From NCBI RefSeq assembly GCF_014647495.1, contig NZ_BMPH01000003.1, positions 1-64,000 on the forward strand: DNA of 64,000 nucleotides. The letters are read 5' to 3'. The stretch is from Glutamicibacter protophormiae. Lineage in GTDB: Bacteria > Actinomycetota > Actinomycetes > Actinomycetales > Micrococcaceae. This document shows, piece after piece, positions 1 to 9,403 of this stretch (positions are counted from its first letter, which is position 1; each line of letters begins with the position of its first letter). The translations under genes and the position numbers were made by a program. The notes under the pieces were generated by a model. That model searched no databases. It saw only the letters and a list, made by a program, of their open reading frames with translations, and had not been told where the DNA came from.

Positions 1-393
1 GCGCGAGCCCTTGGGCACCAGCGTCGGGGCGAAGGTACCGGCCCGGTCCCTGGGGATCTGCAGGTCGATATCCCCGGCCACCGTGGACACGGTCTTCGGG
101 TAGGAGCCATTGCGGGAGTTCGGCAGGAACCGGCCGTGGGCCTCGCCTTGCTCGTAGCCCAGATGGCTGCTCAGCTCGGATTTCAGGCCGCGTTCGAGGC
201 CGGCACGGATGATCTGCTGAATGAATCCGTCTTTGCCGTCGAGCTGGATTTCTCCGCGGTCGATGAAGCCCATGAGTTCGTCGAAGGCCCCGGAGTCCTT
301 GACGGCGTTCATGGAGCCGAGGGCTGCGATCTTCTCTGCGATGTCGGAGGCGTTTTCCATGCTCTGTTCGGTCTGGTCTTTCTGGATGGTCAT
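1..393 (-). CDS. IS256 family transposase, N-terminal part
   Basis: This is a DDE transposase (mutator/IS256 type) that would move the surrounding element; only the first 131 codons are inside the window. The start ATG is at 393-391 and the product begins MTIQKDQTEQSMENASDIAE. The N-terminal region carries family blocks visible here: a helical segment ending in IIRAGLERGLKSELSSHLGY, then GEAHGRFLPNSRNGSYPKTV and the beta segment DIDLQIPRDRAGTF leading to PTLVPKGSR. The catalytic DDE core would lie upstream of base 1. No stop or frameshift is seen in the visible part, so it may be intact. Confidence 0.9.
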   Translation of the reverse strand, partial: MTIQKDQTEQSMENASDIAEKIAALGSMNAVKDSGAFDELMGFIDRGEIQLDGKDGFIQQIIRAGLERGLKSELSSHLGYEQGEAHGRFLPNSRNGSYPKTVSTVAGDIDLQIPRDRAGTFAPTLVPKGSR

Positions 394-430
394 ATCGTGT
401 TTTTCCTAGTCTCTTTCTATCAATTGACTA

Positions 431-462
431 GGGGTCTTACACAATCCATCTGACAGGCTCTC
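431..462 (-). repeat. IS256-type terminal inverted repeat
   Basis: Read on the minus strand from 462 inward, the end starts GAGAGCCTGTCAGATGGATT and continues GTGTAAGACCCC, the usual style of IS256-group termini. A related but diverged copy occurs alone at about 7566-7597. The partner end lies outside the window. Confidence 0.75.
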
Positions 463-630
463 GAGACACTGATAACAATTGCAACGGCGGCTGCGCGCTC
501 ACCGATGTCACCGACGACTTGGTCAGCGCCACCGGGCCCTGTCCTTCATCGGTGGCAATTAGCGCCACGCCGCCGGGTGCCCGCGGAAGAGCGTCTTGAA
601 GTCTTCCACGGGCGCCGATGGCACCGCCAC
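463..630 (-). pseudogene. flavin reductase (FMN-binding split barrel), N-terminal remnant, frameshifted and cut by IS256
   Basis: Starting from GTG at 630-628, seven bases after the mesD stop, the minus strand encodes VPSAPVEDFKTLFRGHP. One base is then missing near 577-580, and the next frame continues GVALIATDEGQGPVALTKSS followed by VTSVSAQPPLQLLSVS. These blocks match the first strand-loop-strand region of the flavin reductase-like FMN-binding domain (SSVTSVSAQPPL is the family hallmark). The homology stops exactly at the IS256 end near 462. The gene is therefore broken twice: by the one-base deletion and by the insertion. Its place as third gene after mesX-mesD suggests it once supplied reduced flavin to that system; this role is an inference. 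Confidence 0.8.
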
Positions 631-637
631 TGCGGTT

Positions 638-1678
638 TTAGACGAGGGCTCCGACAAGCTCCTCGCGCAGCACCGCGGCCCCGGCGCTCAGCGCACTGAG
701 CTTGGCCAGCGCCACGTCGCGCGGGAACGGGGCCATGCCGCAGTTGGTGCTCGGGATGAGCTTGTCGGCATCTACGTACGCCAGCGCCTTGCGCAGGGTT
801 TTGGCCACCTCGTCAGGGGTCTCGACCTGCTGGTTGGCCACGTCGATCGCGCCGAGCATGACCCGCTTGCCGCGCACCAGCTCCACGACCTCCAGCGGGA
901 CGTTCGAGTGGTGGGATTCGAGCGAAATGGTGTCAATCGAGGAACGCTGCAGCAGCGGGAACGACTTCTCGTAATGGCGCCACTGGGTGCCCAAGGTCGC
1001 CTTCCAGTCATTGTTCGCCTTGATGCCGTAGCCGAAACAAATATGCGCCACGGTCTCCGCTTTCAGGCCCTCGCAGGCGCGCTCCAGCGCTGCCACGCCC
1101 CAGTCGGCCACCTCGTCGAAGAACACGTTGAAGGCCGGCTCATCGAACTGGATGACATCCACGCCCGCGGCTTCCAGTTCCTTGGCCTCCTGGTTCAGGA
1201 TAGCGGCGAACTCCCAGGCCAGCTTCTCGCGGCTGCCGTAGTAGCCGTCGTGCAGGGTGTCCACCATGGTCATCGGGCCGGGCAGAGTCCACTTGATCTG
1301 GCGGTCGGTCAGGGTGCGCAGGAACTTCGCATCCTGCACGAACACCGGGGCCTTGCGCTCCACCGCGCCGACCACGCTGGGCACGCTGGCCTCGTAGCGG
1401 TCGCGGATCAGCACGGTCTGCTTGTTCTCGAAGTCAACACCTGACAGGTGCTCGATGAAGGTGGTGACGAAGTGCTGCCGGGTCTGCTCGCCGTCGGAAA
1501 TGATGTCGATCCCGCGGCGGGTCTGCTCCAGCACCGCGGCGCGCATCGCGTCCTGCTTGCCCTCGGCCAGCGCCGCCCCCTCAAGCTTCCACGGCGACCA
1601 CAAGGTCTCGGTTTCCGAGAGCCACGCAGGCTTGGGCAGGGAACCGACAATGGAGGTGGGAAGCAGGGTGTTGGTCAT
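638..1678 (-). CDS. mesD: core methionine synthase MesD (folate-independent, MetE catalytic-domain type)
   Basis: The 346-residue protein corresponds to only the C-terminal catalytic barrel of MetE and lacks the N-terminal folate-binding half (MetE is about 750 residues). Zinc ligands of the family are visible: His212 and Cys214 (AHICFGYG), Glu254 (SLESHHS) and Cys313 (STNCGMAP). The early block DGEQTRQHFVTTFIEHLSG and the direct adjacency to a DUF1852 gene fit the MesD family, which is known to make methionine from homocysteine without methyl-THF or cobalamin but to need DUF1852 and oxygen. The start has an AAAGGA ribosome site 6 nt upstream. It lies 38 bp after mesX in the same operon. The natural methyl donor is unknown. 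A generic MetE-like methyltransferase is the alternative. Confidence 0.85.
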   Translation of the reverse strand: MTNTLLPTSIVGSLPKPAWLSETETLWSPWKLEGAALAEGKQDAMRAAVLEQTRRGIDIISDGEQTRQHFVTTFIEHLSGVDFENKQTVLIRDRYEASVPSVVGAVERKAPVFVQDAKFLRTLTDRQIKWTLPGPMTMVDTLHDGYYGSREKLAWEFAAILNQEAKELEAAGVDVIQFDEPAFNVFFDEVADWGVAALERACEGLKAETVAHICFGYGIKANNDWKATLGTQWRHYEKSFPLLQRSSIDTISLESHHSNVPLEVVELVRGKRVMLGAIDVANQQVETPDEVAKTLRKALAYVDADKLIPSTNCGMAPFPRDVALAKLSALSAGAAVLREELVGALV

Positions 1679-1716
1679 AACAGGTCCTTTGAATTCGTGA
1701 GGTGTTCAGGGGGCGC

Positions 1717-2709
1717 TTAGGCGGCGGGCACGGCGTAGCCGGCGGCCCACTCTTCGAGCAGTGCGCGGTTCGGGGTGATGAAGTGTTCTTCGGTGTACCT
1801 GCCCTGGCTCGCGCCCAGGCGGGTGCGTTCCTCGCGGTCGTAGGAGACCAGCGTGCGGGAGAAGTCCTGCACCTCCAGGCTCGGGCGGTAGACCGCCGGG
1901 GCCGGGGAGTTCGCGTTGTAGATCTCCGGTCGGTAGATCTTCTGGAAGGTCTCCATGGTGGCAATCGTGCTGGCCAGCTGCAGGTTGGTGTAGTCGTTCA
2001 GCAGGTCGCCGCGGAAGTAGAAGGCCAGCGGTGCGACGGAGCCGGCGGGCATGAAGTAGCGCACGCGCAGGCCCATCTTCGCGAAGTACTCATCGGTCAG
2101 CGAGTAGTCGTCCTGCTGGTATTCCAGGCCCAGCACCGGGTGGCTGTTGCCGGTGCGGCGGTAGGTCTTGGAGGTGGAGACGCTGATGCAGATCACCGGC
2201 AGCTGCTCGAAGCGCTGGCGGTAGGCCTGTGAATCCAGGAAATGCTGGAAGAGCCGGCCATGCAGCTCCCCGAAGTCCTCCGGAACCACCGGCTTGCCCG
2301 AGGCGTCGGCCGTTGCCGGCAGCAGCACGCTGAAGTCGTAGTCCCGCACGTAGGAGGAGAAGTTGTTGCCCACGACGCCGTGGGTGCGCGCCCCGGTGTA
2401 CCGGTCCAGGATGCTGGTGTTCAGGACCTCCAGCAGCGGGAAGTCCTGCGCCCCCTGCGCCGAGTCGAAGTGCACGTTGGCGGAGACGATTTCAAGCTCT
2501 AGCGCGTAGCGCTCGCCGTCCGGGTTGTCCCAGTGCGCCAGGGAATTGAAACGGCGGTTGATCATTGTCAGCGCGTTGCGCAGGTTCTCCTGGCGGTTCG
2601 CGCCGCGGGCCAAATTGGCGAAGTTCGTAGTGATGCGCGAATTCTCCGAGGGTGTGTAGTCCTCGGTGAAGTCGGTGCTGGTGATGCTGAAGTTCAGTGC
2701 GTCTGCCAT
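1717..2709 (-). CDS. mesX: DUF1852 protein MesX, oxygen-dependent partner of MesD
   Basis: DUF1852 proteins are required together with oxygen for methionine synthesis by MesD; their chemistry is not established. The product (330 residues from the chosen ATG) contains the family block ENSRITTNFANLARG near the N terminus followed by NRRFNSLAHWDNPDGERY. It has no signal peptide or membrane segment, so it should act in the cytoplasm. The ATG at 2709 was chosen because family members begin only a few residues before this block. An in-frame ATG at 2769 would add 20 residues that do not look conserved. It is first in the operon mesX-mesD-(flavin reductase remnant) and divergent from a LysR regulator. 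Confidence 0.85.
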   Translation of the reverse strand: MADALNFSITSTDFTEDYTPSENSRITTNFANLARGANRQENLRNALTMINRRFNSLAHWDNPDGERYALELEIVSANVHFDSAQGAQDFPLLEVLNTSILDRYTGARTHGVVGNNFSSYVRDYDFSVLLPATADASGKPVVPEDFGELHGRLFQHFLDSQAYRQRFEQLPVICISVSTSKTYRRTGNSHPVLGLEYQQDDYSLTDEYFAKMGLRVRYFMPAGSVAPLAFYFRGDLLNDYTNLQLASTIATMETFQKIYRPEIYNANSPAPAVYRPSLEVQDFSRTLVSYDREERTRLGASQGRYTEEHFITPNRALLEEWAAGYAVPAA

Positions 2710-2830: not shown

Positions 2831-3772
2831 ATGGTTCAGAAAGCGAACGGCCTGACACTGCAGCAGCTGCGCTATTTCATCACGGTGGCGACCGAGGGGT
2901 CGATCTCCGCCGCCGCGGATCTGCTCTACGTCACGCAGCCGAGCATGTCCGCGTCGATGAAGGAGCTCGAAGCACGGGTCGGGCGCACGCTGCTGGCGCG
3001 CTCGGCGCGGGGCGTGACGCTCACCGTCGAGGGGGCGGAGTTCCTCGGCTATGCCAGGCAGGTCCTCGAACAGGTGGAGCTGCTCGAACACCGCTACCTG
3101 GGCCGGCCGCCCTCGCGGCGCCTGCTGGGGATCTCGACCCAGCACTACTCGTTTTCCGTGGATGCGTTCGTGCGCATGGTCCAGGCCAGCGGGGCCGAAG
3201 AGTACGAGTTCTCGCTGCGCGAGACCCGCACCGAGGAGATCATCGAGGACGTGCGCACGCTGCGCAGCGAGATCGGGATCCTCTACCGCAACGACTTCAA
3301 CGCGAAGGTGATCGACAAGCTGCTGCGCGAATCCCGGCTGGTGTTCCACCCGCTGTTCCTCGCCGATCCGCACATCTTCATCTCGCGCAGCAACCCGCTG
3401 GCATCCCGCCGGCGGGCAACCCTTGCCGATCTCGAAGACCTGCCGCGGCTGACCTTCGACCAGGGCGCGAACAACTCCTTCTACTTCGCGGAGGAGATCC
3501 TCTCCACGCTGTCCAGCAAACGCGAGATCAGGGTTTCCGACCGCGCGACCATCTTCAATCTCATGATCGGCCTGGGCGGGTACACGATCTCCACCGGCAT
3601 CATCAGCGACGAGCTGGACCCCTCGATCGTCGCGATCCCGCTGGACATCGACGAGCGCATCGAGATCGGCTGGATCGACCATGCAGCGATCCCGCTGACC
3701 GAGCAGGCCCGGCGCTACCTGGAAGAAGTGCGCACGGTCGTCGCGGAATTCGGAGTCCACCTGCTCGGCTGA
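2831..3772 (+). CDS. LysR-family transcriptional regulator next to mesXD
   Basis: This is a 313-residue regulator of usual LysR length. An N-terminal winged helix-turn-helix (about residues 8-67: LTLQQLRYFITVATEGSISA, then TQPSMSASMKELEARVG) is followed by a LysR substrate-binding domain (about 95-300). It is divergent from mesX across a 121-bp gap to the chosen mesX start. Such an arrangement usually means the regulator controls the divergent operon, and a sulfur metabolite such as homocysteine would be the expected co-inducer by analogy with MetR. Neither target nor ligand is shown by the sequence. The ATG is 6 nt after a TAGACT box, so translation may be leaderless. Confidence 0.8.
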   Translation: MVQKANGLTLQQLRYFITVATEGSISAAADLLYVTQPSMSASMKELEARVGRTLLARSARGVTLTVEGAEFLGYARQVLEQVELLEHRYLGRPPSRRLLGISTQHYSFSVDAFVRMVQASGAEEYEFSLRETRTEEIIEDVRTLRSEIGILYRNDFNAKVIDKLLRESRLVFHPLFLADPHIFISRSNPLASRRRATLADLEDLPRLTFDQGANNSFYFAEEILSTLSSKREIRVSDRATIFNLMIGLGGYTISTGIISDELDPSIVAIPLDIDERIEIGWIDHAAIPLTEQARRYLEEVRTVVAEFGVHLLG

Positions 3773-3998
3773 CACCGTCACACTGCGTCATCGATTCGCC
3801 GCGCAGGACACATTGCGCAGCGAATAACCCCGGAATTCCGCGGTTTTTGGCCTGCGCGCCGCGTCATACAAGGTCCGCGCACCCGGTGTAACGATGACGA
3901 TCACACGACATATGACGGGCCACTGCCTTGTGTGAAGCGCAGCCCCCGGCGCCGTTTGCGCCGTCCGGGACCCATGTCCAACCATGGAACTACACACC

Positions 3999-4083
3999 CC
4001 ATCAAGAGCGACCGAGAGATCTGGCTCGTCGACGTCGCAGCAACCATCGGGAAACCGAAAGGTGCTAATGCCAGGAACGATGG
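3999..4083 (+). promoter_or_regulatory. SAM-I (S-box) riboswitch
   Basis: The closing stem P1 is CCATC (3999-4003) with GATGG (4079-4083). Between them are the S-box core elements in order: AAGAGCGACCGAGAGATCTGG, a P3-like arm with the conserved GCAGCAACC, and GGTGCTAATGCCAGG. This layout matches the SAM-I aptamer that binds S-adenosylmethionine. It stands about 140 bp before metY, so high SAM is expected to lower metY-metB expression. The match was made by eye; covariance scoring was not run. Confidence 0.85.
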
Positions 4084-4124
4084 AGCAGCCCCGGACTGCG
4101 TCTCTTGACGCTGCGCTGTGCCTC

Positions 4125-4184
4125 GTACCATGATGGACAGGCCGCCGGCCTGCCGTCCCCGGTACCTCGCACCGTGTTCGGTGC
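4125..4184 (+). other. hairpins between the SAM aptamer and metY (candidate expression platform)
   Basis: A long stem joins GTACC (4125-4129) to GGTAC (4161-4165) around an inner stem GGACAGGCCG/CGGCCTGCCGTCC. A second hairpin GCACC-GTGTT-CGGTGC follows at about 4169-4184, then a C/T-rich run. Neither has a clear U-tract, so whether control is by termination or by another route cannot be told from sequence. Confidence 0.4.
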
Positions 4185-4221
4185 CCTCTCTCGTGGATTC
4201 GACAACGAGAAGGAGCCAGCC

Positions 4222-5532
4222 ATGGCACAGCCACACACCGGGCCGTCGACGACGGCCATCCACGCCGGGTACACCCCCAGCGGCGACTACCGCCCGCTGG
4301 CCGTGCCGCTGTATTCCTCCGCGGCCTACGAGTTCCCCTCGCATGCCGAGGCGGTGGAGAAGTTCGCGCTGCGCCAGACGGGCTTCACCTACTCGCGCAC
4401 CGGGAACCCGACGGTATCGGTGTTCGAACAGCGCGCCGCGGCCCTGGAAGCCGGGGCCCATGCGGTGGCCACCGCCACCGGCCAGGCGGCCGTGGCGCTG
4501 GCGCTGCTGGCCCTGACCCAGGGCCCGAAGCACATCATCGCCTCCAGCCAGCTCTACGGGGGCACCGTGGACCTGCTCACCGATTCCTTCAACGACTTCG
4601 GCATCCGGGTCAGCTTCGTGGACCCGGAGGACCCGGAAGCTTGGGAAGCGGCCATTGAGCCAGACACCCGAGCCTTCTTCCTTGAATCGGTCACCAATCC
4701 GCTGTCCACGCTGCCGGACCTGCCGGCGCTCAGCGAGATCGCGCACCGCCACAACATCCCGGTGGTCGTGGACAACACTCTGGCCACCCCGGCCAATTTC
4801 CGTCCGCTGCTGCACGGTGCGGACATCGTGGTGCACTCGGCCACCAAGGCACTGGCCGGCCACGGCCAGGTGCTCGGCGGTGTGGTGGTGGACTCCGGGA
4901 CCTTCGACTTCTCGGATCCGGAACGCTGGGCGCAGATCGCCGCCCCTCGCGCCCGCTACGCCGGCACCTCGCTGCTGGAGCGCTACGGGGCCGGAGCCTA
5001 TTCCATGCTGGTGCGCTCCAAGTTCCTGCACGATCTGGGCCCCACGCTGTCGGCCGCCAGCGCCCACGGCATCCTGACCGGCATCGAGACGCTGTCGGTG
5101 CGCACCGCCGCGGCGCAGCAGAACCTGCTGCTGCTGGCGAACTTCCTGCAGGCCCACCCGGCGGTGGCGGCGGTGCACCACCCCAGCCGTCCCGGGCACC
5201 CGCATCACGAACGCGCCAAGCGCTTTTTCCCGCGCGGCACCGGCAGCGTGCTGGCGGTTCAGCTGCACGACGAGGCCCTGGTTTCCGCGTTCATCGACAG
5301 CCTGGAGGTGATCGTGCTGGCCGCCAACATCGGCGACACACGCACCATGATCGCCCACCCAGCCACCATGACCCATTGCCGGCTTTCCGAAGCGCAGCTG
5401 GCCGACGCGGGCCTGAACCGCGCGGTGCTGCGCCTGTCGGTGGGTCTGGAAGACCCCGCAGATTTGATCCGCGACCTGGACCGCGCACTGAGCGCGGCCC
5501 AGGCCGCCACCCGAGAGGAGAGCTTCGCATGA
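4222..5532 (+). CDS. metY: O-acetylhomoserine sulfhydrylase (homocysteine synthase)
   Basis: A PLP enzyme that joins O-acetylhomoserine and sulfide to give homocysteine. The product is 436 residues, the usual length. It starts with [10 protein letters not shown], has the PLP-phosphate region [14 protein letters not shown] (about 57-70), the PLP ring Asp in [10 protein letters not shown] (about 181-190), and the Schiff-base lysine in [12 protein letters not shown] (Lys209). The ATG at 4222 has AAGGAG 6 nt upstream and follows the SAM-I riboswitch. Its TGA overlaps the metB ATG (ATGA), so the two are translationally coupled. An O-acetylserine side activity is possible in this family. Confidence 0.92.
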
Positions 5533-6734
5533 GCGGCTTCAACACGCTGGCGGTGCACGCCGGCCAGGAAAAGGACCCGCACACCGGTGCGGTGATCCCT
5601 CCGATCTACCAGACCAGCACCTTCATCCAGGACGGCATCAACGTGCTGCGCGCCGGCCACGAGTACTCCCGCGGCTCCAACCCGACCCGCAACGGATTCG
5701 AAGCCCAGCTCACCGCGCTGGAAGGCGGAGCCGCCGGCTTCTCCTTCGCTTCCGGAATCGCGGCGGAAGATGCGCTGCTGCGGGCGCTGCTGGCCCCGGG
5801 GGACCATATCGTCTTGGGGGCGGACGGTTACGGAGGAACGAACCGTCTGATCACCCGGCTGCACCACAAGTGGGGCATCACCGCCAGCGCGGTGGACATC
5901 ACCAACCTGGATGCGGTGCGTGCCGCACTGCGCCCGAACACCGCGCTGCTCTGGGTGGAGACCCCGTCCAACCCGCTGCTGGGCATCGCCGACCTGGCCG
6001 GCTGGGCCGCCATCGCCGCCGAGCACGGCGCCCTGCTGGTCGTGGACAACACCTTCGCCACCCCGTACCTGCAGCGGCCGCTGGACTTCGGAGCGCACGC
6101 GGTGGTGCACTCGACCACCAAGTACATTGGGGGGCACTCCGACGTCCTCGGCGGCGCGGTCATCGTGGCAGACCACCTGCACCGCGGCCAATCGCTGGCC
6201 GAAGCCGTCGGCTACCAGCAGTTCGCCGGGGGAGCGGTCTCCGGTCCGCAGGATTCCTACCTGGCCGCCCGCGGGCTGAAGACCCTGGGCCTGCGCATGG
6301 AACGCCACTGCGCCACCGCATCCACCCTGGCCGGCTGGCTCGATGACCGGCCCGAAGTCGCCCGCGTCTACTATCCCGGGCTGGAAAGCCACCCGGGCCA
6401 CGAGCTGGCCAAGCGCCAGCAGCGCGGTTTCGGCGGCATCCTCTCGCTGCAGCTGGCCGACGAGTCCGCGGCCCGCGCCTTCGCCGAGTCCATGGAATAC
6501 TTCCAGCTCTCGGTGTCCCTGGGCGGGGTGGAATCACTGGTCTGCTATCCGCGCGAAATGACCCACGCTTCGCTGATCGGCACACCGCTGGAAATCCCGG
6601 CCAACCTGGTCCGCCTCTCGGTGGGCATCGAGGAGCCCGAGGACCTGATTGCCGATCTGGAACTCGGACTCGCCGCTGCCGAAAAGGCTTCCGGGGCGGG
6701 CAGCATCCAGCACCGCAGCCTGGCTACCGCCTGA
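5529..6734 (+). CDS. metB: cystathionine gamma-synthase
   Basis: A Cys/Met-metabolism PLP enzyme expected to condense an acylhomoserine with cysteine to cystathionine. The 401-residue product begins [20 protein letters not shown] and has the conserved YSRGSNPTRNGFE, the PLP Asp in VVDNTFATPYLQRPL (about 171-185) and the Schiff-base lysine in VHSTTKYIGGHSD (Lys198). The start was placed at the ATG that overlaps the metY stop; in-frame codons upstream would run deep into metY. Together with metY it gives both routes to homocysteine under the same riboswitch. A cystathionine gamma-lyase function cannot be excluded from sequence alone. Confidence 0.88.
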   Translation: MSGFNTLAVHAGQEKDPHTGAVIPPIYQTSTFIQDGINVLRAGHEYSRGSNPTRNGFEAQLTALEGGAAGFSFASGIAAEDALLRALLAPGDHIVLGADGYGGTNRLITRLHHKWGITASAVDITNLDAVRAALRPNTALLWVETPSNPLLGIADLAGWAAIAAEHGALLVVDNTFATPYLQRPLDFGAHAVVHSTTKYIGGHSDVLGGAVIVADHLHRGQSLAEAVGYQQFAGGAVSGPQDSYLAARGLKTLGLRMERHCATASTLAGWLDDRPEVARVYYPGLESHPGHELAKRQQRGFGGILSLQLADESAARAFAESMEYFQLSVSLGGVESLVCYPREMTHASLIGTPLEIPANLVRLSVGIEEPEDLIADLELGLAAAEKASGAGSIQHRSLATA

Positions 6735-7954: not shown

Positions 7955-9403
7955 ATGGGGGATCACATGGGGAAAGATTCGGAAGGCCGGGTCCCGGACG
8001 CTAAACCAGATCATGAAAATCCTGCATTCTGGCGACGCTGGGTGAGGAGTTTGAAGAAGTGGGGGCCCCTCCTCTGGTTTCATAAGCGGTTGAAGAAGTT
8101 ACATGAGCAGTTGGAACAGTCCCCCCTTTTAGTGGCCTCTCTATGGGCCATTACCGGCGCACTAGTAGCATTCGGAGTGCTTTGGATCTTAATTGGTTTC
8201 GTCATGCATGGGTTTTGGACCTGGGGGTTGGGCCCCGGGGACACGACGAGGGCCGATGCTGTTCGTACCGTACTGACGATGATTGCTGGTGTTGGCGGCA
8301 TCATTTACCTGACGATTGCGTACCGACGCCAGCGGGGTGTTGAGGCATCTGACTTCATGAATCGGTTGGAGAACGCGGCGAGACAATTGGGATCCTCTGA
8401 CCCGATGGTGCAGTATGCGGGAATCTATGCCTTGGAAGCGCTGGCTGATGAAAATGCGACTGAGCGCAAACAACTATGCGTGGATGTGCTGTGCGCGTAC
8501 TTACGGCTACCCTATCAGGGTAACGGACGTCCGACCTTGTTGAAAGAGGTTGTGGAAAAGCATGCTTGGACAGATGGGCGGCGCAACGTTGAGGAAATCC
8601 GAACTCACCAGCTTCGACCGGCCGACAAGGAGGTGCGCCTAACGATCATACGAACGATTAGTAGGCATCTTCAGGATGACGCATCTAAAACGTGGTCAGG
8701 GTTGGACTTAGATTTTACTGGTGCGGTTATCGATGGTGGAGATTTCTCTGGAGCCGTATTCTCTGGCGGAAAGGTGTCCTTCAGCGGTGCGAAGTTCTCT
8801 GGTGGGAAGGTGTCCTTCAGCGGTGCGAAGTTCTCTGGCGGGCAGGTGAACTTCGACGGTGCCGAGTTCCTTGGCGGGAAAGTGACCTTTTTCGGAGCGC
8901 AGTTCTCCGATGGGGAAGTGACCTTTTTCGGGGTCCGGTTCTCCGGTGGGGAAGTGTCATTCAGCGAAGTGCAGTTCTGTGGTGGGGAAGTGTCTTTCGG
9001 ACGGGCAAAGTTCTTCGGCGGGAAGGTATCCTTCGGATATGCGGAGTTTTCTGGCGGGAAGGTGACCCTCAACGGTGCGGAATTCTTTGGCGGGAAGGTG
9101 TCCTTCGGGCGTGCGCGGTTCTCTGAAGAGGCGGAGGTGTCCTTCGGACGTGCGAAATTCTCTGGTGGGGAAGTGCCCTTCAGCGGTGCGAAGTTTATTG
9201 GTGGAGAAGTATCCTTCTTCGGTGCGAAGTTCTCTGACGGGGACGTGGACTTATCCGACGCGAAGTTCTCCGGTGGTCATGTGGACTTCAGGAAGCCTGC
9301 TGCATGGGATGCACCGCCGCGTGTTCCATGGGATGACGGGCAACCGCCGGTTAATGTGCTTCCGGACCAGTGGCCTCCAACTGTGTGGATTCCAAAGGAG
9401 TAG
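7955..9403 (+). CDS. membrane-anchored pentapeptide-repeat-like protein with 12-residue repeats
   Basis: The 482-residue product has a charged N-terminal cytoplasmic segment, two membrane helices (about 60-83 and 97-117), a helical soluble region resembling that of other actinobacterial pentapeptide-repeat proteins (FMNRLENAARQLGSSD, IYALEALAD), and a repeat domain (about 258-447). The repeats have a strict 12-residue period, FxGGxVxFxxAx, with alternating hydrophobic positions as expected for a right-handed beta helix. One unit has an extra residue (FSEEAEVSFGRAK). The start ATG has GGTGAG 8 nt upstream. The gene is isolated in an AT-richer stretch and was probably acquired. Its function is unknown. 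Confidence 0.8.
   Translation: MGDHMGKDSEGRVPDAKPDHENPAFWRRWVRSLKKWGPLLWFHKRLKKLHEQLEQSPLLVASLWAITGALVAFGVLWILIGFVMHGFWTWGLGPGDTTRADAVRTVLTMIAGVGGIIYLTIAYRRQRGVEASDFMNRLENAARQLGSSDPMVQYAGIYALEALADENATERKQLCVDVLCAYLRLPYQGNGRPTLLKEVVEKHAWTDGRRNVEEIRTHQLRPADKEVRLTIIRTISRHLQDDASKTWSGLDLDFTGAVIDGGDFSGAVFSGGKVSFSGAKFSGGKVSFSGAKFSGGQVNFDGAEFLGGKVTFFGAQFSDGEVTFFGVRFSGGEVSFSEVQFCGGEVSFGRAKFFGGKVSFGYAEFSGGKVTLNGAEFFGGKVSFGRARFSEEAEVSFGRAKFSGGEVPFSGAKFIGGEVSFFGAKFSDGDVDLSDAKFSGGHVDFRKPAAWDAPPRVPWDDGQPPVNVLPDQWPPTVWIPKE
8759..9295 (+). repeat. tandem 36-bp coding repeats (14 full units plus a partial)
   Basis: Imperfect 36-bp units begin TTCTCTGGCGGGAAGGTG and encode the 12-residue repeat of the surrounding protein. 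Units start at 8759 and recur every 36 bp, with one 3-bp expansion in the unit near 9120; the last partial unit begins at 9266. The first two units are nearly identical in DNA, which suggests recent unit duplication. Confidence 0.85.

Follow-up and report, generated by a model that had tools for sequence, protein, structure and literature searches.

We analysed a stretch of 64,000 nucleotides from Glutamicibacter protophormiae (contig NZ_BMPH01000003.1, positions 1 to 64,000), hereafter the window, which carries a mesX-mesD gene pair near the start of its contig (Table 1). MesD and MesX are established as a folate-independent methionine synthase for which MesX and oxygen are required, the described systems being those of Acinetobacter baylyi (ACIAD3523/3524) and Sphingomonas koreensis (Price et al. 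2021, PMC7857596). Escherichia coli deleted for metE or metF was rescued by mesD and mesX only jointly and only with air, in an account of the rescue that mentions no cloned reductase (PMC7857596), and MesD is reported to be insensitive to nitrous oxide (PMC13059711). An earlier note on this DNA, made from the sequence alone, had placed the two genes side by side, and indeed both are intact and lie on one strand with 38 bp between them. Profile searches matched the window MesX to PF08908 ("Putative oxygenase MesX") with 557.2 bits over positions 1-323 of 323 (cut-off 25), making it a full-length member of the family. MesD matched the NF006589 methionine synthase profile with 614.7 bits (cut-off 392) and PF01717 with 124 bits; it is of the MesD type, consisting of the catalytic domain, lacking the folate domain that MetE has at its N-terminus, and adjoining the DUF1852 gene. 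The order mesX then mesD was found in 80 of 80 related loci (the contig of L046 stops inside mesD) and also in all 16 of the other Glutamicibacter loci, so that the pairing is far beyond chance. The homocysteine genes beside the pair are intact.

Table 1. Features of the mesX-mesD region of the window
Feature	Position	Strand	Details
Insertion sequence (IS) of the IS256 family (Mutator), one end	1-460	-	transposase open reading frame 393->1, runs off contig
PF01613 flavin reductase relic, N-terminal third only, with frame break	461-630	-	frame and profile evidence
mesD, core methionine synthase	638-1678	-	346 aa, intact
mesX (DUF1852, PF08908)	1717-2709	-	330 aa, intact
Operator-like element, mesX/LysR intergenic, overlaps LysR start codon	2787-2833	-	CATAG-N6-CTAT..CATAG..TTAC..GAT
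Divergent LysR-type regulator	2831-3772	+	PF00126/PF03466
S-adenosylmethionine (SAM) riboswitch RF00162, upstream of the two genes listed next	3996-4086	+	63 bits, gathering 44.4
O-acetylhomoserine sulfhydrylase-like gene (homocysteine formation)	4219-5532	+	TIGR01326 458 bits, below cut-off 495
Cystathionine gamma-synthase	5529-6734	+	NF005871 566 bits, cut-off 513

The earlier note had also placed a flavin reductase gene 7 bp after the mesD stop. A GTG at 630, 7 bp past the mesD TAA, does open a flavin-reductase-like frame, but what follows is a broken relic cut by an IS and not a gene. The first frame stops at 559-561, within about 25 codons, and the similarity resumes at about 583 in a different frame, continuing as far as the IS junction at about 460; this second piece comprises 35 residues corresponding to positions 9-43 of the 153 of PF01613 (27.6 bits). 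There is accordingly no intact PF01613 reading frame beside the window mesD, and a search of the rest of the genome at E <= 0.001 did not reveal the C-terminal half of the relic. The transposase of the IS matched PF00872 with 67.3 bits and, partially, NF033543 with 41.3 bits (below the cut-off of 150). The IS boundary was placed at about 460, up to which near-identical genomic copies share sequence, and it is there that the element cuts the relic; coordinate 463, one limit of the locus as drawn in the earlier note, is in effect this junction. Since the window begins at base 1 of its contig, the region beyond the IS is out of view. The genome pieces L160, L131, L165 and L166 were examined for the far side of the element and none fit.

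The window genome (G000) was compared with 17 others of the genus, 18 in all. MesX is present in 17 of the 18, the exception being G003, and an intact reductase frame directly follows mesD in 12 of the 17 (L113-L120, L122, L124, L125 and L127). Glutamicibacter soli NHPC-3 (L128, also sampled as L002) has a full-length reductase relic without an IS and with further stops; its relic changes frame where the window relic does and shares 83% DNA identity with it over 174 bp. L126 retains a shorter reductase fragment, and no significant reductase trace was found in L121 or L123. Since the sister genome shares the frame break without having the IS, the break is most likely older than the insertion. 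A programmed frameshift in the reductase is unlikely, as the sister genome with the identical frame break carries further stops. Both mesX and mesD are intact in the window, L128 and L126. The ratio of nonsynonymous to synonymous substitution rates (dN/dS) between the window and L128 was 0.174 for mesX (dS 0.26) and 0.048 for mesD (dS 0.31), and between the window and L126 it was 0.190 and 0.048, respectively; both genes are under purifying selection. Three pairs that have the reductase gave a ratio of 0.06-0.08 for mesX, with one pair near saturation. We make no claim that selection on MesX relaxed once the reductase was lost: the dN/dS of MesX is higher, but the ratios of MesX dN to MesD dN overlap. 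Two further observations concern rearrangement of the operon. L121 (G011) is a chimera of a mesX like that of L113 and a mesD like that of the window (96% identical), and L168 (G004), L206 (G016) and L205 (G015) each carry, 2-4 kb past the intact operon, a second partial mesD and a reductase fragment. The G011 chimera may have arisen from such tandem copies.

The same 18 genomes were searched with profiles for MetE, MetH, MmuM and MetF. Full-strength MetE (PF01717 467 bits, 786-residue frame) and MetF (PF02219) were found only in G003, the MetH activation domain PF02965 in none of the 18, and PF02574 (the MmuM/MetH type) in 10, not including G000, G009 and G017. The window genome gave no match to PF02219, PF02965 or PF02574; flavin-independent MetF forms, which escape PF02219 (PMC7857596), were not searched for. 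In this search the window genome showed no methionine synthase other than mesX-mesD. The gene content is consistent with oxygen-dependent methylation of homocysteine here without MetF or cobalamin, and 85 proteomes are reported with MesD as sole synthase, 69% of those being without MetF (PMC7857596). Because the sole detected synthase pair is under purifying selection while the reductase is broken, the adjacent reductase is dispensable here; the window locus testifies to the dispensability of a neighbouring reductase and not to its presence. In G003 (L167), metF and metE lie just before the sulfhydrylase and cystathionine synthase genes, in the slot held by LysR-mesX-mesD in other genomes of the genus (the region of window 2831-6734), which looks like the exchange of one methionine synthase system for another at a single chromosomal site.

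We then turned to relatives, using the best 80 of at least 585 MesX candidate loci, a sample that leans to close relatives. A flavin reductase lies in or beside the mesX-mesD operon in 39 of the 80 loci, a candidate cognate flavin mononucleotide (FMN) reductase for MesX that the window locus lacks. The reductases are of three kinds. Twenty-two are actinobacterial PF01613 proteins, 21 of them encoded directly after mesD and one (L010) beyond the regulator. Seven are proteobacterial PF01613 proteins encoded after mesD, from Acinetobacter, Rhizobium, Devosia, Pseudochrobactrum and a record labelled Bacillus subtilis; the latter (L072, strain SK6B4) has a mes operon that groups with Pseudochrobactrum and is probably mislabelled or contaminated. 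The remaining ten are MsuE-type reductases whose genes precede mesX in Xanthomonas, Stenotrophomonas, Burkholderia and Achromobacter. Four of these were scanned against Pfam and all matched PF03358, three were scanned against NCBIfam and all matched TIGR03566 with 247-257 bits (cut-off 212.5), and the rest are 77-86% identical to the MsuE of L074. MsuE belongs to a different Pfam family from PF01613 and has a flavodoxin-like fold. In 38 loci the reductase is on the mesX-mesD strand, its position varying from an overlap with mesD to 543 bp ahead of mesX. In Stenotrophomonas mori (L060, G059), msuE lies 76 bp before mesX and the genome has no PF01613 match. The two PF01613 groups form separate clades in a tree whose starred branches force two changes, with a long-branch warning; its sequences from outside mes loci come from the genus Glutamicibacter only, and duplicates (L155, L158, L159, L161-L164 and L168), copies of L122 and L125 (L003 and L004) and the broken L140 had been dropped beforehand. 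On a quick MesX tree the four reductase states require at least eight changes, fewer being forced by well-supported branches alone. The earlier note had named the lack of a recurrent reductase near mesX-mesD as grounds for abandoning its proposal; such reductases do recur. The proposed link is not new: a nearby flavin reductase and a predicted flavin cofactor were published by Price et al. (2021, PMC7857596).

Reductases were also sought away from the mes loci. The window genome has five further PF01613 matches, the best being 34% identical to any mesD-linked reductase, and none falls in the linked clades of the tree; two of the types (clades of L101 and L102) occur in every one of the 18 genomes. 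PF02219 and PF01613 were also sought in 50 of the genomes behind the 80 loci, a set of our own choosing made up mostly of isolates. Of the 50, 24 gave no match to PF02219 stronger than 200 bits, among them G022, Paenarthrobacter aurescens TC1, which has been named as lacking MetF (PMC7857596). PF01613 was present in 49 of the 50, the exception being G059 with its MsuE. No reductase of the three kinds lies at the mes locus in 29 of the 50 genomes, and in ten of these 29 (G034, G040, G047, G048, G050, G052, G053, G054, G055 and G060) the mesD-linked type sits elsewhere, 59-85% identical; nine of the ten genomes have no PF01613 match besides it. None of the other PF01613 genes fetched exceeds 45% identity to the linked type, L208 and L219 being about equally near both types; genes from G045, G065 and G067 were left out of this comparison, G036, G038, G044, G051 and G061 were covered in part, and a piece from G066 was missed by the local profile. 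In a wider search of 396 genomes of the order with a joined MesX and reductase query, in which the top three candidates per genome were scored, 39 genomes had MesX, 14 had the linked type (>=62% identity) and 12 had both among the matches listed (Fisher p about 1e-11 on these counts, kinship ignored). In ten of the 12 the genes are within about 2 kb, in one they are 13.6 kb apart and in one they are on different contigs. In G234 and G150 the mesD-linked type occurs twice, once next to mesX and once far away from it.

All 58 actinobacterial loci among the 80, and all 16 loci of the genus, have a LysR-type regulator that diverges from mesX and is 78-94% identical to that of the window; the remaining 22 of the 80 gave no match to it at E <= 1e-15. 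The motif ATAG-N7-CTAT lies in the mesX/LysR space of all 74 actinobacterial loci and matches once in the 64 kb window; elsewhere it matched twice in 1.13 Mb of oriented loci, in a coding region of L012 and in L010, where the reductase relocated beyond the regulator is preceded by a full operator copy (48.6 bits). Most MsuE loci have a LysR gene upstream, the one scanned being MetR-like (220 bits, below the cut-off of 382), and MetR is absent among the 25 best NCBIfam matches of the window regulator. In Proteobacteria the pair PF08908-metE2 has been placed in MetR regulons, and PF08908 in Xanthomonadales was called a hypothetical reductase (Leyn et al. 2014, PMC4239095). In Acinetobacter baumannii, methylcobalamin lowered the DUF1852 gene ABUW_3198 (log2 -8.33) and a flavin reductase two locus tags away, ABUW_3196 (log2 -2.52; PMC12892962). 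A cobalamin riboswitch as the cause of such repression was rejected, being present in only one of 11 loci scanned with Rfam: it was detected in neither the scanned proteobacterial loci L055, L056, L060 and L066 nor the six actinobacterial ones scanned. The one found, in the Rhizobium locus L065 (5469-5678, minus strand, 127 bits), lies 323 bp before mesX on the opposite strand. Further along the window, an open reading frame at 7955-9403 (plus strand) contains a long run of short imperfect repeats, judged by eye, with the look of the pentapeptide-repeat type.

For the structure of MesX we built AlphaFold2 models of the window protein (60 sequences, pLDDT, the predicted local distance difference test score, 90.9) and the Acinetobacter protein (52 sequences, pLDDT 91.8), from alignments that overlap and are not fully independent. 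Foldseek returned no PDB hit at E <= 0.001 for either model (best E 0.23 and 0.074), and the template modelling score never exceeded 0.22 among the 50 best rows per model. A search of BFVD with the window model likewise gave no hit at E <= 0.001, and a PDB sequence search with MesX gave no match below E 0.05. By a new fold for MesX we mean that there is no Foldseek match in the PDB.

The explanation that we favour, with moderate confidence, is that this is a MesX-MesD locus in which MesX acts as a reduced-flavin-dependent oxygenase, of a fold without a PDB match, served by exchangeable reductases. The locus would constitute an oxygen-dependent, folate- and cobalamin-independent methionine synthase with a dedicated divergent LysR regulator, set beside homocysteine genes. 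MesX would most likely use oxygen and freely diffusing reduced FMN (FMNH2) from a separate reductase and release a methyl group, which MesD would transfer onto homocysteine. The reductase would be an exchangeable supplier, lineages having recruited at least three kinds and moved or dropped them. In the window genome the adjacent reductase would have decayed first and then been hit by the IS, and flavin would presumably be supplied by one or more of the five other PF01613 reductases or by an unrelated reductase. Flavin as the cofactor, the stand-in reductase and the role of the regulator are what we infer here; reduced flavin is probably needed and a particular reductase probably is not. In favour of this explanation are the joint, air-dependent rescue by the homologues, the linked reductases of three kinds in 39 of 80 loci, the linked type elsewhere in ten genomes, its association with MesX in the order, the relocated reductase of L010 with its operator copy, the methylcobalamin response in A. 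baumannii, and the purifying selection on what is here the sole synthase detected. The proposal of the earlier note that MesX is a reduced-flavin-dependent oxygenase is partly supported, gaining from the recurrent linked reductases elsewhere and losing from the lack of a known flavin or oxygenase fold and from the dead reductase of the window itself.

A number of results weigh against this explanation. The predicted models of MesX do not show a known flavin-dependent oxygenase fold. No linked reductase is in view in 41 of the 80 loci (among these L002 is a relic, and L046 could not be judged downstream nor L075 upstream), and no intact one in five of the 17 MesX genomes of the genus (the window, L128, L126, L121 and L123). 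PF01613 is near-universal, being found in 13 of 14 control genomes, so that the presence of some reductase elsewhere proves little. G041, G042, G043, G046 and G056 have no MetF match and a single PF01613 protein only 42-45% identical to the linked type. Among the matches listed for the 396 genomes, two have the linked type without MesX and 27 of the 39 with MesX are without the linked type; the linked type predicts MesX (12 of 14), and MesX does not predict the reductase. A weight matrix from the 74 operators found none in the 450 bp before any of the ten unlinked reductases (0/10), and we rejected a shared operator there. Finally, mutants of S. koreensis rescued by methionine were reported to be in mesD, mesX and mostly homocysteine genes, with a few others "not expected to be involved" (PMC7857596), from which it follows that the reductase there may not matter.

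An alternative that we regard as unlikely is that MesX is a metal-dependent oxygenase or oxidase (for example with non-haem iron) and that the reductases only supply electrons, for instance through flavin that reduces the metal, and are hence optional. The lack of a known flavoprotein fold in MesX and the frequent absence of a linked reductase would both suit a metalloenzyme, as would the invariant residues His150, His190, Glu196 and Asp206 (A1 numbering), which we put forward as candidate metal ligands; against this, MesX has no recognisable metalloenzyme fold either, and three kinds of FMN reductase beside mesX-mesD point to free reduced flavin as the common need. It is quite improbable that the reductases do not serve MesX at all and are linked to it by co-regulation only, through shared sulfur and methionine neighbourhoods. 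MsuE serves methanesulfonate monooxygenase, and two of the ten unlinked reductases adjoin homocysteine or cystathionine genes (one 45 bp after an O-acetylhomoserine sulfhydrylase gene in L214, the other among cystathionine and sulfhydrylase genes in L213), no such gene having been noticed around the other eight. The reductase is also dispensable in the window genome and, as published, in the E. coli rescue (PMC7857596). Co-regulation alone sits poorly, however, with the presence of MesX in 12 of the 14 genomes that have the linked type, among the matches listed, and with the 38 loci in which the reductase is on the mesX-mesD strand. That the whole operon is decaying in this lineage, the loss of the reductase being a first step in a strain that takes up methionine, is very improbable: the reductase is already lost, G003 of the genus lacks MesX and the MesX dN/dS of 0.17-0.19 against 0.06-0.08 in the three reductase-bearing pairs could be mild relaxation, but mesX and mesD are intact in the window, L128 and L126, mesD has a dN/dS of 0.04-0.05, no other methionine synthase was detected and the adjoining homocysteine genes are intact.

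The work of 2021 left the question of how certain aerobic bacteria form methionine with neither methyl-folate nor B12, and the methyl donor and the chemistry of MesX are undescribed in the open-licence PMC literature that we found, in which no study of MesX biochemistry after Price et al. (2021) was found; passages from PMC11003636, PMC11378808 and PMC12366255 yielded no mention of MesX. The nearby reductase and the flavin idea belong to Price et al. (2021), and what is new here is the reductase decay, the reductase swaps, the operator and the fold result. The published remark that the pair is often near a flavin reductase is sharpened to three kinds of reductase beside it, including MsuE of another Pfam family, to a reductase relocated together with an operator copy and to a clade, including the window, that lost the adjacent reductase and kept mesX-mesD as its sole detected methionine synthase. 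The prediction from these results is that the loci have in common a need for free reduced flavin, that any FMN reductase would suffice and that the fold of MesX is new. More tentatively, and with less than even confidence, we suggest that MesX founds a new structural class of reduced-flavin-dependent oxygenase that turns a central metabolite into a source of transferable methyl groups, with a free and swappable electron supplier, joined to it on three or more occasions from distinct reductase families and at other times lost, as in the window genome.

Among known systems, the two-component FMNH2-dependent monooxygenases SsuE/SsuD, MsuE/MsuD, RutF/RutA and HpaC/HpaB offer one comparison. Like them, mesX-mesD loci can have a small FMN reductase gene next to an oxygen-dependent partner, and MsuE itself lies beside mesX in ten loci. 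MesX differs from them in resembling no PDB fold by Foldseek or sequence, and its reductase is exchangeable and often absent. Compared with the MesD/MesX systems of Price et al. (PMC7857596), the window is alike in that both proteins are full length and adjacent and in that the genome has no MetF match, as is reported for many MesD-only proteomes; it differs in that the adjacent reductase is a relic and in having a divergent LysR regulator with an operator-like element, of a kind seen in actinobacterial loci only. Compared with PF08908-metE2 in the MetR regulon (PMC4239095), a LysR-family regulator is again tied to the gene pair, whereas the actinobacterial CATAG element is unlike the MetR motif ATGAA-N5-TTCAT given there.

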